From Alphaproteobacteria bacterium (GTDB taxonomy: Bacteria > Pseudomonadota > Alphaproteobacteria > UBA2966): 37,116 nt of DNA. The first letter of the stretch is position 1; each line of letters opens with the position of its first letter. This document shows, piece by piece, positions 3,532 through 37,116 of the stretch. The position numbers were made by a program, and so were the translations under genes. The stretch lies in contig JABIFY010000119.1 in NCBI GenBank assembly GCA_018650465.1, positions 1-37,116 on the forward strand, written 5' to 3'. The notes beneath the pieces were generated by a model. That model had not been told where the DNA came from. It worked only from the letters and a program-made list of their open reading frames with translations, and made no database searches.

Positions 3532-4968
3532 CTACCCCGCCTCAGTCCCACCAACCGTCAGCTCATCGATCTTCAGCGTTGGCTGGCCCACGCCGACCGG
3601 CACGCCCTGGCCGTCCTTGCCGCAGGTGCCGACGCCGGGGTCGAGTTCCATGTCGTTGCCGATCATGCTGACTTTGGTCAGGACATCGGGGCCGTTGCCG
3701 ATCAGGGTGGCGCCTTTGACGGCGGCACCGATTTTGCCGTTTTCGATCTGGTAGGCTTCGGTGCAGGTGAAGACGAACTTGCCGCTGGTGATGTCGACCT
3801 GGCCACCGCCAAAGTTCACGGCATACAAACCGTTTTTGACGGATTTGATGATTTCTTCCGGGTCTTGGTCGCCATTTTCCATGACCGTGTTGGTCATACG
3901 CGGGATGGGCATGTGGGCATAATCCTGGCGGCGGCCGTTGCCGGTTGGGGCAACGCCCATCAGGCGGGAATTCAGGCGGTCCTGCATATAACCTTTCAGG
4001 ATACCGTCTTCGATCAGCACGGTGCGGCTGGTCGGGGTGCCTTCATCGTCGATGCTTAAAGATCCGCGCCGATCCATCAAGGTGCCGTCATCCACCACGT
4101 TGACACCAGGGGAGGCCACGCGCTGGCCCAGCAATTCGGAAAAGGCGCTGGTTTTTTTGCGGTTAAAATCACCTTCCAGGCCGTGGCCAATGGCTTCATG
4201 CAGTAAAATACCTGGCCAGCCTGGCCCGAGCACAACAGGCACAGTGCCCGCCGGGGCGGGAACGGAGGACAGGTTCACGTCGGCCTGGCGCATGGCTTCG
4301 TCGATGGCGGCTTTCCAGGATTCCGGCTTCAGATAGTCGGCATACAGGGTGCGGCCACCTGTGCCAAAGCTGCCGGTTTCCTGGCGGTCGCCTTCGCCCA
4401 GCACGACCGATACGTTAAAGCGCACCAGGGGGCGCACGTCGCCAGCCCGGCTGCCATCGGCCCGCAGGATTTCGACCACCTGCCACGATCCAGCCAGAGA
4501 AGCAGAGACCTGGCGCACGCGGTCGTCGCTGCTGCGGGCATAGGCATCGATTTCTTCCAGCAGTTTAACCTTTTCCCCGAACGGCACATCGTTCAGCGGA
4601 TTGTCATCTATATATAAAGACTGGTTGGTGCCGGTGGGCCCGTCAGCCATGGTGCCTGAACGGCCCTGGCGCACAGACTGAACGGTGTCTGATGCGCGCT
4701 TGATGGCGGCTTCAGACAGTTCCGAAGCATGGGCATAACCGGTTGATTCGTCGGACACAGCCCGCAAACCAAAGCCTTGTGAGGTATCGAAACTGGCCGA
4801 TTTCAGACGACCGTCATCCCAGGCGAGGGCTTCGGATTGTTTATATTCCAGGAATAACTCACCATCGTCGCAGCCGCTCAAGGCACCCTCGACCAGGCCC
4901 TGAACCTTGTTTCGGTCCAGGCCGGCGCGGGTGAATAACATTTCTTCGGCTTTGCTGCTGTCGCTCAT
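3532..4968 (-). CDS. tldD: Metalloprotease TldD
   Basis: 478 aa, full length for the family. TldD forms a heterodimeric zinc protease with TldE/PmbA that degrades unfolded peptides and trims some modified-peptide precursors and antitoxins. The active-site helix HEAIGHGLEGD is at residues 257-267, giving the HExxxH zinc motif, and the conserved C-terminal [18 protein letters not shown] is intact. It diverges from the cox operon, with about 475 bases between it and ctaC. A second copy of its last codons lies at 2143-2237. No pmbA gene is in the window. Confidence 0.95.
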   Translation of the reverse strand: MSDSSKAEEMLFTRAGLDRNKVQGLVEGALSGCDDGELFLEYKQSEALAWDDGRLKSASFDTSQGFGLRAVSDESTGYAHASELSEAAIKRASDTVQSVRQGRSGTMADGPTGTNQSLYIDDNPLNDVPFGEKVKLLEEIDAYARSSDDRVRQVSASLAGSWQVVEILRADGSRAGDVRPLVRFNVSVVLGEGDRQETGSFGTGGRTLYADYLKPESWKAAIDEAMRQADVNLSSVPAPAGTVPVVLGPGWPGILLHEAIGHGLEGDFNRKKTSAFSELLGQRVASPGVNVVDDGTLMDRRGSLSIDDEGTPTSRTVLIEDGILKGYMQDRLNSRLMGVAPTGNGRRQDYAHMPIPRMTNTVMENGDQDPEEIIKSVKNGLYAVNFGGGQVDITSGKFVFTCTEAYQIENGKIGAAVKGATLIGNGPDVLTKVSMIGNDMELDPGVGTCGKDGQGVPVGVGQPTLKIDELTVGGTEAG

Positions 4969-6348: not shown

Positions 6349-7920
6349 ATGAGCGATTCCCACGATCATACCCCCACCGGGCTGAAGCGTTGGCTTTACT
6401 CGACGAACCACAAAGATATTGGCACGATGTATATCATCTACGCTATTATCGCTGGTCTCGTCGGATCCCTGTTTTCAGTGATCATGCGCCTGGAATTACA
6501 AGAACCAGGTATGCAGTATTTCATGGACGACTTTCAGTCGTTTAACGTTGTGGTCACGGCCCATGGTCTGATCATGGTGTTCTTCATGGTCATGCCCGCC
6601 CTGATTGGTGGCTTTGGCAACTGGTTTGTGCCGCTGATGATTGGCGCGCCTGACATGGCCTTCCCACGGATGAACAACATCAGTTTCTGGCTGTTGATCC
6701 CGGCGGCAATCCTGTTGGTAGCATCGCCCTTTGTTGATGGTGGTGCCGGTACGGGTTGGACGGTTTATGCGCCTTTGTCGACGTCAGGCCATCCCGGCAT
6801 GGCTGTTGATATGGCCATCCTCAGCCTTCACCTCGCGGGTGCGTCTTCCATCCTGGGTGCAGCCAACTTCATCACCACCATCTTCAATATGCGCGCACCT
6901 GGCATGACCTTGCACAAGATGCCGCTGTTTGTCTGGTCAGTTCTGATCACCGCCTTCCTGCTGTTGTTGTCCTTGCCTGTTCTGGCTGGCGCCATCACCA
7001 TGCTGTTGACGGATCGTAACTTTGGCACAGCTTTTTATGATGCCTCGAACGGTGGCGATCCGGTTTTGTATCAGCACCTGTTCTGGTTCTTCGGTCACCC
7101 GGAAGTGTACATTCTGATCTTGCCCGGTTTTGGTATTGTCAGTCACATCATCTCGACCTTCTCGCGTAAGCCGATCTTTGGTTATCTGGGCATGGCCTAT
7201 GCCATGGTTGCCATTGGCTTTGTTGGCTTCATCGTTTGGGCGCACCACATGTATACAGTGGGTCTGGACGTTGATACGCGAGCCTATTTTGTGGCGGCCA
7301 CCATGGTTATTGCGGTGCCGACGGGGGTCAAGATTTTCTCCTGGATAGCCACCATGTGGGGCGGATCAATTACCTTCAAGACCCCGATGATGTGGGCTCT
7401 TGGCATGATCTTCCTGTTCGTGGTTGGTGGTGTGACGGGTGTTGTGCTTGCCAACGCCGGTGTCGATGTGGCGCTGCATGATACTTATTATGTTGTTGGT
7501 CACTTCCACTACACCATGTCGATGGGTGCCATGTTCTCGATCTTTGCCGGTTTCTATTACTGGATTGGCAAAATGTCGGGACGTCAGTATCCGGAAACAC
7601 TTGGTAAACTGCACTTCTGGATTACCTTCATTGGCGTGAACCTGACCTTCTTCCCGATGCACTTCTCGGGTCTGGCAGGCATGCCGCGGCGTATCCCTGA
7701 TTATCCGGATGCTTTCGATGGCTGGAACTATATCTCGTCGCTAGGCGCTTACATGTCCTTTGCCGGTGCGATCCTGTTCGTCTTCATCGTTTGGCGTACA
7801 ATGAAAGCCGGTGAGCAAGTTGCCGACAATCAGTGGGGCGAAAGCGCCAATACGCTGGAATGGACGGTATCTTCACCACCACCGTTCCACACCTTCGAAG
7901 AACTGCCGCGCATTAAATAA
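6349..7920 (+). CDS. ctaD: Cytochrome c oxidase subunit I
   Basis: 523 aa with twelve expected membrane helices. It holds heme a and the heme a3-CuB site where oxygen is reduced. Visible signatures are [15 protein letters not shown] (CuB His and cross-linked Tyr), [15 protein letters not shown] (heme ligands), [10 protein letters not shown] with the D-channel Asp, the HPE glutamate and the K-channel Lys in TGVKIFSW. All mark an A1-type heme-copper oxidase with both proton channels. A GAGG site at about 6336 precedes the ATG. It lies between subunit II and heme O synthase in one operon. Confidence 0.98.
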
Positions 7921-33639: not shown

Positions 33640-33713
33640 GCGGGCGTAGCTCAATGGCAGAGCAGAAGCTTCCCAAGCTTACGACGAGGGTTCGATTCCC
33701 TTCGCCCGCTCCA
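33640..33713 (+). tRNA. tRNA-Gly (anticodon CCC)
   Basis: 74 bases including an encoded CCA. The acceptor arms GCGGGCG and CGCCCGC pair fully with T as discriminator. The D arm is GCTC/GAGC, the anticodon loop TTCCCAA gives anticodon CCC, and the T arm is GAGGG/CCCTT with loop TTCGATT. The top pair of the anticodon stem (G-A) is mismatched. The last 14 bases are the start of an 88-bp repeat that recurs inverted at 34943-35030, and an integrase gene lies immediately downstream, so this is an attachment site. Confidence 0.95.
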
Positions 33714-33787
33714 TTCTCGACGGAACATCCGCCACAAGCCATTGATATGTAAGCATTTTATGTGATCAACTGGCATGAGGTGCGGTA
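33700..33787 (+). repeat. Left arm of 88-bp perfect inverted repeat (att region)
   Basis: 88 bases identical, in inverse orientation, to 34943-35030. It covers the last 14 bases of tRNA-Gly and the sequence up to four bases before the integrase ATG, including the integrase's likely promoter and GAGG site. The match ends sharply at both sides: 33699 and 33788 do not pair with 35031 and 34942. Confidence 0.95.
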
Positions 33788-33791
33788 CATA

Positions 33792-34964
33792 ATGCGCAAC
33801 ATATCTGACGCTAAACACATCATTTGTCGTGACGGCGTGTTTTACTATGTACGCAGAGTTCCAGCAGATATTGCTGCTCTGTATTCTAAAGAACGCTTTT
33901 ATTTTAGCCTTCGCACTAAGTCGCGTGCGATTGCATGTCGAGCAGCAAGTTCTGTGAGCCAGAAGCTTGAAGCATACTGGATGGGCATCAGACTTGAGCA
34001 GCTTGACATCCCTGAGTTGGTCGCAGCGTCTGGTGTGAAACTACATTCTTCTGATCTGCCGACGCTGAATGATGCCAAGGAACTTTACATACAGCTGAAA
34101 GGCACTGGTAAAGGTAAGACGTTCTTTCAGGCTGCTGAAAGATCAGTCAGATATGTATCTAAAGCCCTTGGGGATCGCACTCTGGACCAATACTCAAGTC
34201 AAGATGCGGCCATGTTTCGTGACTGGCTTATTGCGAAGGGCCTGAGTGTCGTCTCAGTAAAGCGGAACTTTTCAACCATCAGATCAATAGTCAATTTGTG
34301 TATTAGGGAAAATGGTCTGACTTGTAGAAATGCCTTCTCTGCAACATACATGCCTCAACATGAGGAGCGGGCAAAGCGTCAGCCGATACCCGTTGAAAAT
34401 ATCAACACCATTCAAAATAGTTGCTACGAAATTGATGATGACTTGAGGCATATCGTGGCCCTAATATCGGACACGGGCATGAGGTTAGCTGAGACGGTTG
34501 GACTTAAGCTGAGTGACATACACTTGGACGTAGACGTTCCACATGTGATGGTTCAGCCCCATCCTCACAGACATCTCAAGACAGCCGATAGTGAAAGAGC
34601 GATACCATTGACCGGGGCATCGCTGTGGGCCGCAAAAAGGGTTGTGGCGACCAGTGCTTCGTCTGAGTTTGCTTTCCCACGTTACTCTAAGAAAGGTGAA
34701 TGTTACTCTAACTCAGCAAGCGCTACATTGAACAAATGGATCAAGCCGTTTGTCCCCATCAATTGTGTGCTGCACTCGTTTAGGCACAGCATAAGAGACA
34801 GGCTCAGAGCAATTGAATGTCCTGCTGACGTAATTGATGCCATCGGAGGTTGGGCTACTGCCGGAGTTGGCCATAACTACGGCTCTGGGCATCCACTAGC
34901 AGTGAAGCATCACTGGCTTGATCAAATAGCAAAGGGTACGTCTACCGCACCTCATGCCAGTTGA
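33792..34964 (+). CDS. int: Tyrosine recombinase (phage-type integrase)
   Basis: 390 aa from the ATG at 33792; a GTG at 33762 is also in frame but has no ribosome binding site. The N-terminus (FYYVRRVPADI, FYFSLRTKSRAIA) is the arm-binding domain common in tRNA-targeting integrases, followed by a core-binding helical domain (about residues 90-185). The catalytic set is complete: Arg231 in DTGMRLAE, Lys263, His328 and Arg331 in HSFRHSIRDR, His361 and nucleophile Tyr363 in GHNYG. It catalyses site-specific recombination at the att sites. The last seven codons and the stop lie in the right arm of the 88-bp inverted repeat, so the gene is framed by the repeat on both sides. Confidence 0.93.
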   Translation: MRNISDAKHIICRDGVFYYVRRVPADIAALYSKERFYFSLRTKSRAIACRAASSVSQKLEAYWMGIRLEQLDIPELVAASGVKLHSSDLPTLNDAKELYIQLKGTGKGKTFFQAAERSVRYVSKALGDRTLDQYSSQDAAMFRDWLIAKGLSVVSVKRNFSTIRSIVNLCIRENGLTCRNAFSATYMPQHEERAKRQPIPVENINTIQNSCYEIDDDLRHIVALISDTGMRLAETVGLKLSDIHLDVDVPHVMVQPHPHRHLKTADSERAIPLTGASLWAAKRVVATSASSEFAFPRYSKKGECYSNSASATLNKWIKPFVPINCVLHSFRHSIRDRLRAIECPADVIDAIGGWATAGVGHNYGSGHPLAVKHHWLDQIAKGTSTAPHAS

Positions 34965-35030
34965 TCACATAAAATGCTTACATATCAATGGCTTGTGGCG
35001 GATGTTCCGTCGAGAATGGAGCGGGCGAAG
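34943..35030 (-). repeat. Right arm of 88-bp perfect inverted repeat
   Basis: The reverse complement is identical to 33700-33787. The arm encodes the integrase C-terminus (TAPHAS and stop) on the plus strand and contains a reversed copy of the last 14 bases of tRNA-Gly at its right end (35017-35030). The arms enclose 1155 bases. A perfect copy over this length implies a recent duplication or continuing homogenisation. Confidence 0.95.
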
Positions 35031-35433
35031 TGCTTATCACTGCTTCACTTATGCCCCAACACAAAGCCTGTGTAAGCAATATCAATAGGTTAGCAACATG
35101 TGAGTCAGCGTCAATAGGCACCTTCTGTTCTACAGTTTGTGTAGCAGTTCAGCTTACTCAGTTTCAACTGTATCAAAGCCATGCTTGTACCTGCAGCATC
35201 ATTCGCACATTACCTGTGTGACGTTGTAACGGCTGTTGAGTCTTTGCGAGTCTCTGGGGCTGTTTGATGAGGCTGATGACTCTGCAGAGGCGATCTGAGT
35301 CCATTAACAGCATGTCAAACATGCTTCTCTGTAGAAGAACTATCTACGGTCAAAGAACCCTTAAGCCTAGATTGTATGATTTCCTGTCAGGTGGGTAAGT
35401 CAGCCTGTTTCATACACATACCGGATGAGGAAG

Positions 35434-35449
35434 TGTCCAACGTTGGACA
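35434..35449. promoter_or_regulatory. 16-bp perfect palindrome, candidate operator
   Basis: TGTCCAACGTTGGACA is identical to its own reverse complement over 16 bases. It is typical in size and symmetry of a dimeric repressor site. It sits in the element's gene-poor region. No repressor gene is visible in the window. Confidence 0.55.
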
Positions 35450-35674
35450 GTTATATGTATGCATTGTCATGTAGCGTGATTGGGTGCCTTGTGTTGATCC
35501 GGTCTGTTTATGTTCTGCTTGTCATGAGCAGAGGCCCCGGGGCAGGGGCCGGTGGGGGGCTATGCGTTAGTATACTCACTCAAGCACACAGATCAGGTTT
35601 TCAGTTCCGGGTGTATCTGCCTCCTCCTCACCCTTAACGAGGGGTGGGGGGTATATATCTATTACTCTTTAAAG

Positions 35675-35774
35675 AATGACAAAATGACAAAATGACAGGG
35701 GATATGAAAAGTCTCTACGGAATATATTACAGGGAAGTTTGTAAAAACCCTGTCCGTTTTGTCATTCTGTCATT
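35675..35774. repeat. Iteron-like AATGACA repeats in inverted arrays
   Basis: Three direct copies of AATGACA at 8-base spacing (35675, 35683, 35691) are faced by two inverted copies at the same spacing (35760-35766, 35768-35774). The flanks GGG and CCC extend the symmetry, giving two 26-27 base arms that differ at a few positions around a spacer of about 47 bases. The arrangement resembles iterons or a large terminator stem. The downstream neighbour is the helicase 3' end. Confidence 0.7.
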
Positions 35775-35797
35775 GCCAGTTGCATGATCACATAAAA
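35775..35797 (-). repeat. Degenerate third copy of the integrase-proximal att sequence
   Basis: GCCAGTTG followed by GATCACATAAAA matches the right repeat arm (34956-34974) except for a four-base insertion between the halves. The 12-mer TTTTATGTGATC or its complement therefore occurs at 33756-33767, 34963-34974 and 35786-35797, and once more at 2019-2030. Within the element it may be an integrase arm-type or regulatory site. Confidence 0.55.
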
Positions 35798-35873
35798 GAA
35801 TGAGGAGGGAGCACTGTTAAGCTCCCCCCAAAAGTCGTTGTCACACATATGTGCGCTGTTGTTGTGAAGACAG

Positions 35874-37004
35874 TCAGACTGGCCCCATTACACTCTGCAA
35901 TGTGAAGCCTTGCCAGAAACGTTCAAGACCGGTTCGGGTTTGCTTGTAACCCTTTGCCTCAAGAGCCGACTTCAAACGACCCTTCGGCTGGGGTATGGCG
36001 TCATTCTCCTCACACCACTGGTTATAGATGTAAGTGACCTCAGCAATCTTGATTTTTGAGACAGACCCATCAATGCACTGATCCTCAATAAAAGCCGTAA
36101 TGGAGTCCATCTCATTGCGATACTCAGACATTGCGCTGGTCACAGAAGCTGGAGGGTTAAGGCCTTCCCTTTGCCACTTCAGGCAGCCCTCTATCAACCA
36201 GTTGAAGATACCAGACTTCTCGGCCAACAACTTGTTGGTGAGGTCCTTGTCTTGCTCCTCTGATTTGAACTGTCGCTTGAAAGGAACCTCATGCAATCGC
36301 CTCCATATACCGTCGTCACTGCCAGAGATTATTGGCCGATTGTTTGTTGTCAGCCAGATTTTACCTACAGGTTTGAAGCTTACATATCGCCCATATAACT
36401 GACGGGCAGTGATCGTATCCCCACCTGTCATGGACTTGATCCTCGCCTCCGCAAATCGTTGCCCGTGTTCAGTCTCAGCAGTTGTAATCAGTCTGGCCCC
36501 TGAGAGCCTGACAAGATCATCGCCAATCCTGCTCATGCCATCTGCCATCAAGGTATGAGCCGCAGTGTTGACAGCGTAGTCACCCATCAGGTCAGTCAAT
36601 ATGTTTACAAACGTAGACTTCCCGTTTGCGCCATTGCCAAGCAACATGAACATAACCTGTTCATCAATGCTTCCAGTCATCGTGTATCCGGCTGCCTTCT
36701 GAACGTACTCAACAAGCTCGGCATCACCATCAAATACATCGTTCACAAAGCTTCTGAAGTGAGGGCACCCAGCGTCAGAGTCAAACTGAACATCAGCCAT
36801 CTTGCTGTGATACATATCCGGTGATGGTGCAAGTAAGACGCCTGTGTTCAGATCAACAACTCCATTTGAAACACACATCTGCATTGGATGAGAGTCAAAC
36901 TGGTTTGTTTCAACGGACATCAGGGGAGCAGCCAGTCTAACTATGTTGTCCAGTTTGTTTGCAGTCAGAAATGATGACTGTCTGTCGTCATGCAATTGGA
37001 ACAA
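35874..37004 (-). CDS. P4-type phage/plasmid primase-helicase, N-terminus lost
   Basis: 376 aa visible. It carries the SF3 helicase core of the D5/P4 primase C-terminal family: Walker A LLGNGANGKSTFVN (121-134), motif B LITTAETEHG, motif C KIWLTTNNRP and GIWRRLHEVPF. A winged-helix-like C-terminus follows. These proteins unwind the replication origin of phages, satellites and plasmids. The first codon here is a TTG, and the frame stays open to 37034 into IS-like sequence, so the true N-terminal primase part is missing and the gene has probably been cut by the insertion at about 37014-37020. Likely non-functional unless restarted. Confidence 0.85.
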   Translation of the reverse strand: MFQLHDDRQSSFLTANKLDNIVRLAAPLMSVETNQFDSHPMQMCVSNGVVDLNTGVLLAPSPDMYHSKMADVQFDSDAGCPHFRSFVNDVFDGDAELVEYVQKAAGYTMTGSIDEQVMFMLLGNGANGKSTFVNILTDLMGDYAVNTAAHTLMADGMSRIGDDLVRLSGARLITTAETEHGQRFAEARIKSMTGGDTITARQLYGRYVSFKPVGKIWLTTNNRPIISGSDDGIWRRLHEVPFKRQFKSEEQDKDLTNKLLAEKSGIFNWLIEGCLKWQREGLNPPASVTSAMSEYRNEMDSITAFIEDQCIDGSVSKIKIAEVTYIYNQWCEENDAIPQPKGRLKSALEAKGYKQTRTGLERFWQGFTLQSVMGPV

Positions 37005-37013
37005 CTTGCGGCC

Positions 37014-37116
37014 TGATCTAAGAGAGGATCTGGCTCATCTGGTTAATAATATTAAGCGGCGTGTTTGCGGTATTGCAAGCGCCGGGTTTCCATTGTTTTC
37101 CGTTTGATCCTCTCTC
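37014..37116 (-). mobile_element. End of an IS3-like insertion sequence
   Basis: Past the last recognisable helicase codons the sequence changes character and encodes a transposase C-terminus (37052-37116) on the minus strand. A TG dinucleotide at 37014-37015 could be the IS3-type terminus. AGAGAGGATC (37021-37030) has an inverted copy at 37106-37115. The other end lies outside the window, so target duplication cannot be checked. Confidence 0.6.
37052..37116 (-). CDS. Transposase C-terminal fragment (IS3-like), cut by window edge
   Basis: Minus-strand frame with stop TAA at 37054-37052, reading ERIKRKTMETRRLQYRKHAA at the C-terminus. Ends of this kind (a basic ERIKR...RRLQ...HAA tail) are common in DDE transposases of the IS3 group in alphaproteobacteria. 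The catalytic core is beyond the window. Family assignment rests on the short tail only. Confidence 0.55.
   Translation of the reverse strand, partial: ERIKRKTMETRRLQYRKHAA

Follow-up and report, generated by a model that had tools for sequence, protein, structure and literature searches.

Genomic islands at tRNA genes, tycheposons included, combine a tyrosine integrase gene beside the tRNA with direct repeats of the tRNA 3' end and variable cargo (transporters, defence, sugar use), and all these features recur in the elements described here. Inverted attP sites are not described for such islands in the portion of that literature available to us, and the control integrase family considered below lacks them. 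Integrons offer, in attC, a precedent for the exchange of one strand completed by replication, with the choice of strand given by unpaired bases. In the 2-micron plasmid of yeast the recombinase gene abuts one inverted repeat. Recombinase targets within long inverted repeats divide that circle in two, as is the case here; however, the 2-micron circle is a plasmid and not an integrative element, and its FLP/FRT isomers occur in equal amounts (PMC3147054), in contrast to the strongly biased direction reported below. In bacteriophage CTXphi, the sites attP1 and attP2 have opposite orientation and hybridise into a folded single-stranded attP, at which XerC exchanges one strand (PMC3089051). The elements analysed in this work likewise contain two opposite att copies and employ tyrosine recombinase chemistry, with single-strand insertion as a prediction. 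Unlike CTXphi, which uses the host XerCD at dif, they have an integrase of their own and a tRNA target; the CTXphi sites are non-identical and ~90 bp apart, while here they are identical over hundreds of base pairs, and int would occupy one loop of the folded form and the cargo the other. Finally, the SE elements (SE-6945) of marine bacteria are copy-out-like, strand-biased circularizing tyrosine-recombinase elements (PMC10782965). They share with the present family the marine proteobacterial hosts and the tyrosine recombinase, and possess inverted end motifs, but differ in the intA-tfp-intB-srap gene set, the short imperfect C/C' repeats and the 6-bp footprint, and tRNA targeting is not described for them (PMC10782965). 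No intA-tfp-intB-srap set was recognised among the ORFs and annotations of the complete elements described below, in which a single integrase lies beside the att sites.

The window, i.e. the whole stretch of DNA that was analysed (37,116 nucleotides), is an entire contig (C157, one of 163) of a 4.8 Mb draft alphaproteobacterial genome. An intact tRNA-Gly(CCC) gene at 33640..33713 on the plus strand (ARAGORN; Rfam RF00005, 66 bits) is the predicted integration target (attB). Its final 14 bases (33700..33713, plus strand) constitute the attL core and are common to the inverted copy; relatives share 14-17 tRNA bases in the same place. The left arm (33700..33787, plus strand) comprises the core and the P' arm, which is also the int leader, and the right arm (34943..35030, minus strand) comprises the P' arm and the inverted core (att-). 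The repeat finder and a direct letter-by-letter string comparison agree that the arms are 88 nt long and 100% complementary, with 1155 nt between them; the bases bordering them differ on both sides, hence the limits of the repeat are exact. This pair is the sole inverted repeat of at least 25 bp within the window, and a perfect inverted repeat of such length is not due to chance. The int gene (33792..34964, plus strand) encodes a tyrosine recombinase with a DUF6538 N-terminal domain. The left arm ends 4 bases short of ATG 33792, which is likely the start of int, just inside the repeat, while GTG 33762 opens the same frame too. The end of the ORF at 34964 places the last seven codons and the stop of int in the right arm. 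Thus, the anatomy proposed by the sequence-only reading, i.e. exact reverse complements over 88 bases, with the tRNA end and the int leader in one arm and the int C-terminus in the other, was reproduced in all these parts. So was its claim that int stays whole in either orientation: when 33788-34942 is inverted in silico, an identical Int protein is encoded on the opposite strand. The geometry preserves the tRNA as well.

The window is predicted to contain the left end of an integrative element that targets a tRNA. As judged from complete relatives, the P arm and the start of the cargo are expected at 35031..35873 (no strand assigned), followed by a 5'-truncated P4/D5-type primase-helicase gene (D5_N and DUF5906 in Pfam; 35874..37004, minus strand). 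This gene is cut by a multi-copy repeat (36979..37116, no strand assigned), probably the end of an insertion sequence, at which the contig stops; this genome has near-identical copies of it on contigs C125, C59 and C52. In the window itself the P' half of attP alone is visible, and no inverted partner of the P arm is present on this contig; the partner and attR are expected to lie outside it. The corresponding site is empty in a congener (G001), where an MFS transporter gene follows within ~90 bp of the same tRNA-Gly, which has the same genes upstream. In the window's genome the MFS gene is on a separate contig (C34), as expected for an insertion at tRNA-Gly. The tRNA core is absent before the MFS gene on C34, where the end of a response-regulator-like gene is found instead, and no further exact copy of the core was detected in the window's genome, i.e. 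attR was not found there. Elsewhere in the window, a direct 89-bp repeat (2145-2233 / 3534-3622, 92% identical) reflects a duplication of the terminal part of a TldD-like gene (3532-4968, minus strand); the two copies are ~1.4 kb apart, and the interval is occupied by response-regulator and Hpt-like genes.

The Pfam analysis of the window Int identified PF20172 (4.5e-16) and PF00589 (1.6e-11). The protein has the catalytic R, K, HxxR, H/W and Y of tyrosine recombinases, and R231, K263, H328, R331, W354 and Y363 are invariant in an alignment of 8 family members (A1). In the window and in relatives alike, int adjoins the tRNA 3' end. A sequence search of the PDB with the window Int revealed no relative, single-protein scans of genome contigs and viral contigs gave no match, and no literature on DUF6538 integrases was found among open-licence PMC papers.

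A search of 385 alphaproteobacterial genomes identified 18 homologues (44-53% identity) in 8 other genomes, most of which have an exact inverted copy behind int that begins in the tRNA 3' end, at differing tRNAs. In a first set of loci, composed of the 8 genomes from this class-wide search and a family of 61 genomes rich in homologues, with longer flanks, the inverted arm is present at 50 of 62 int loci (at least three of the 12 loci without it end ~110 bp or less from int), and the tRNAs used are Gly, Leu, Arg, Thr, Phe, SeC and Asn. When GTDB contigs were scanned with a profile, 381 relatives were obtained from alpha- and gammaproteobacteria, represented by isolates, MAGs and single cells, and 80 of these relatives were kept; together with four loci from the viral collection they form a second set, overlapping the first, in which the arm occurs at 63 of 84 loci. 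Among the loci of the GTDB scan with at least 3 kb of downstream sequence the arm is found in 27 of 32. The genuine number is slightly lower, since the repeat of L203 is sequencing adapter and L234, one of the 27, is probably an amplification chimera. Ruegeria sp. TM1040, strain BAL199 and gammaproteobacterium HTCC2207 also possess the arm. As a control, an unrelated tRNA-Arg integrase from the same 61 genomes was analysed, and the arm was found in 0 of 30 loci (27/32 versus 0/27, Fisher p ~8e-12). The presence of the arm in most relatives and its absence from the control indicate that it belongs to the integrase family and not to the assembly. The earlier interpretation of the inverted copy behind int as an att site, and of its absence as the ordinary state of such elements, is thus borne out; the lack of the arm in related elements, which the sequence-only reading had named as evidence against itself, was looked for with the opposite outcome.

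The same reading had warned that the repeat could be an artefact of assembly or amplification. Single-cell amplification does yield inverted chimeras. The window's genome is a draft of 163 contigs, most of the other genomes searched are drafts too, and locus L234 from the single-cell genome AG-343-K16, where a 361-bp inverted copy (1945-2305 / 7514-7874) includes tRNA-Leu(taa), looks like such a chimera, probably produced by MDA. The 19-bp inverted repeat of L203 was rejected as an artefact, since this public MAG contig opens with a Nextera adapter (L203 1-63). However, the same architecture at differing tRNAs is seen in isolate genomes, a complete megaplasmid (TM1040), MAGs and SAGs, and a simple chimera would require the sequence past the right arm of the window to be the reverse complement of the region upstream, which it is not. 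For the family an artefact is refuted, and we regard it as an extremely improbable explanation of the repeat.

Complete elements revealed that the inverted pair seen in the window is one half of a larger arrangement. Behind int, a further and longer inverted repeat (197-1148 bp, mostly 96-100% identical) encloses the cargo and terminates at a direct copy of the core (attR). The P' and P repeats overlap solely in the tRNA 3' end (14-17 tRNA bases in nearly all cases), and the order of parts is tRNA-core-P'-int-P'(inverted)-core(inverted)-P-cargo-P(inverted)-core-chromosome, so that each element also has the ordinary direct attL and attR. The P' inverted pair described earlier for the window thus stands, but was incomplete as an account of the structure, because the second repeat doubles the whole attP. 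As deduced from this arrangement, the element circle would hold two complete identical attP sites, which face opposite ways and flank int; the two attP of an element are identical over ~390-1217 bp.

The clearest complete element is that of Ruegeria sp. TM1040, located at tRNA-Phe on the megaplasmid NC_008043.1 (L189), with the P' repeat at 598870-598786 / 597528-597612 (85 bp, 100%), the P repeat at 597544-596397 / 586101-587248 (1148 bp, 100%), direct cores near 598867 and 586114, and the inverted core at 597544. Its P repeat holds a whole duplicated BRO-family gene, i.e. the repeat can extend far past the att site. The BAL199 element has a P' repeat of 85 bp and a P repeat of 733 bp (99.5%), that of HTCC2207 an 80-bp P' repeat and a 247-bp P repeat (96%), and about ten to a dozen further cases were identified in genomes G225, G391, G395, G404 and G447 (P repeat 197-394 bp). 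The direct core copy at the far end (attR) is present in the elements of TM1040, BAL199, G225, G391, G395 and G447. It lies beyond the cargo, which rules out the core-int-core segment alone as the mobile unit. The elements are ~3-16 kb in size, and tandem arrays are found in G391, G395 and G225. In the arrays L123, L117, L060 and L066 direct cores at one tRNA are common to successive elements, and the array of G225 has a different tRNA-Arg integrase (L066 14848-15828) at the next copy of the core. No description of natural inverted attP pairs of this kind was found among open-licence PMC papers; apparently, these elements represent a widespread, undescribed tRNA-targeting family of marine bacteria.

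The cargo is varied and includes ABC and TRAP transporters, GH32, a glycosyltransferase, a Z1/HATPase/cytosine methylase group and BRO proteins (families beyond the Pfam-tested ones were assigned by reading the sequences), while the cargo of TM1040 is a type I restriction-modification system. In most complete elements no relaxase or gene for ssDNA processing was found among the cargo genes inspected. In the int modules of G122C48, G406C29, G445C114, G391d, G314C22, G405C35 and G447C3 a second gene lies alongside int between the short arms; it is nearly always convergent with int and tracks the int lineage while the cargo segment differs.

The direction of int is nearly constant. In the GTDB and viral set the 5' end of int is at the tRNA in 57 loci and the reverse holds in 2 (binomial p 6e-15 versus 50:50); in the first set the ratio is 42:1, and six array members point the same way. 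These counts bear on the proposal, made by the sequence-only reading, that inversion switches the orientation of int, and on the related view of a double-stranded inversion system resembling 2-micron or an invertible switch, in which Int would flip int or the cargo, either to amplify the excised circle or to act as an on/off control. Several features agree with such a system: two target sites in long identical inverted repeats split the circle, the recombinase gene abuts one repeat, int survives the flip in silico, a primase-helicase is present in some elements, and two loci are possibly reversed. Of these two, L203 starts in adapter sequence, and in the better case, G416C5/L222, the arms no longer match past the core. 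Inverted targets in repeats flanking the recombinase gene are found as in an FLP-type system, but the equal orientations are not. A cargo gene common to three diverged elements retains a constant direction relative to int. Furthermore, each segment brings its own flanking arms, hence a flip would alter no local promoter, and the expression switch proposed earlier would produce little local change. A replication gene in every cargo, required by a strict 2-micron model, was rejected, as it was recognised in some elements only and most complete elements have none among the ORFs inspected. Inversion of the whole cargo between related elements was likewise rejected, because the few inverted matches (G314C22/G391d, G122C48/G406C29 and G314C47/G391h) are single genes or diverged operons and not clean inversions. 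On balance, we consider the inversion system unlikely.

Two identical attP sites are indistinguishable on a double-stranded circle, and unbiased double-strand integration should therefore insert int equally often in both directions (50:50). The bias points either to strong selection against reversed insertions or to a strand-specific reaction; we favour the latter, as the 57:2 bias is not explained by identical attP sites on a double-stranded circle.

The evolution of the sites is also relevant here. The choice of tRNA is random with respect to the int tree, on which it changes 40 times against a shuffled mean of 39.9, while P' arms are shared within int lineages. The core next to the tRNA and the inverted core both correspond, in every element, to the tRNA used there. 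Comparison of 13 pairs of related elements showed 113 of 138 arm substitutions (82%) to be mirrored in both arms. The mirrored substitutions and the matching cores indicate concerted evolution of the two sites, which are adjusted anew whenever the tRNA changes. Gene conversion would account for the mirrored substitutions and for the variable length of the P repeat (197-1148 bp), and the direct end cores are those of ordinary islands. Both observations agree with an ordinary double-stranded circle that integrates via attP1, in which the inverted attP is mostly passive, is kept identical by homologous recombination and may serve as a backup or as a template for updating the core at a new tRNA, with reversed insertions lost by selection or the second site shielded by its surroundings. 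On the other hand, two attP sites identical over such lengths should both be active, a passive copy should decay and yet is found across two classes, and the direction bias would demand strong selection. This explanation appears to us somewhat doubtful.

From the anatomy, the spread, the identity of the arms, the retargeting and the fixed direction of int, all read directly from the sequences, we infer a strand-specific route in which the two inverted attP sites would work as a pair. The source DNA may be a single strand released by excision, or may already be single-stranded on its entry into the cell. In ssDNA, annealing of the two attP sites could create a single folded, double-stranded attP, whose two loops would contain int and the cargo, respectively; Int would then exchange one strand with the tRNA, and replication would finish the insertion. 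If the same strand is released and inserted each time, the direction of int would be kept. Mismatch repair in the annealed stem could maintain the identity of the arms and transfer the core of a new tRNA to the inverted site. That the pair of twin inverted attP sites anneals in this manner is our preferred reading, held with a little less than even confidence. The fuller proposal, that these own-integrase elements move via ssDNA, with the annealed stem rewriting the core for each tRNA and the donor keeping its copy, is more tentative and is put forward as a possibility. Several considerations count against the single-stranded route: the cargo genes inspected include no relaxase or ssDNA-processing gene in most complete elements, the fixed direction could be due to selection against a reversed int (because of antisense transcription reading through into the tRNA, or because int is silenced), the identity of the arms could be maintained by ordinary RecA gene conversion, and the folded stem would be fully paired, lacking the unpaired bases by which integron attC selects its strand.

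Scores of genomes of marine alpha- and gammaproteobacteria share this architecture, and its cargo is ecologically relevant (sugar and TRAP transporters, restriction-modification, glycosyltransferases), hence these elements may contribute importantly to gene flow in the surface ocean. Three questions become directly testable with them: by what means islands devoid of conjugation genes move, what allows one integrase family to exchange its tRNA target with such ease, and whether integration of a single strand occurs beyond filamentous phages and integrons. The family would also provide a recombinase with an apparently reprogrammable att core. If the proposed route is true, one integrase lineage can colonise many tRNA genes, with the donor retaining its copy.
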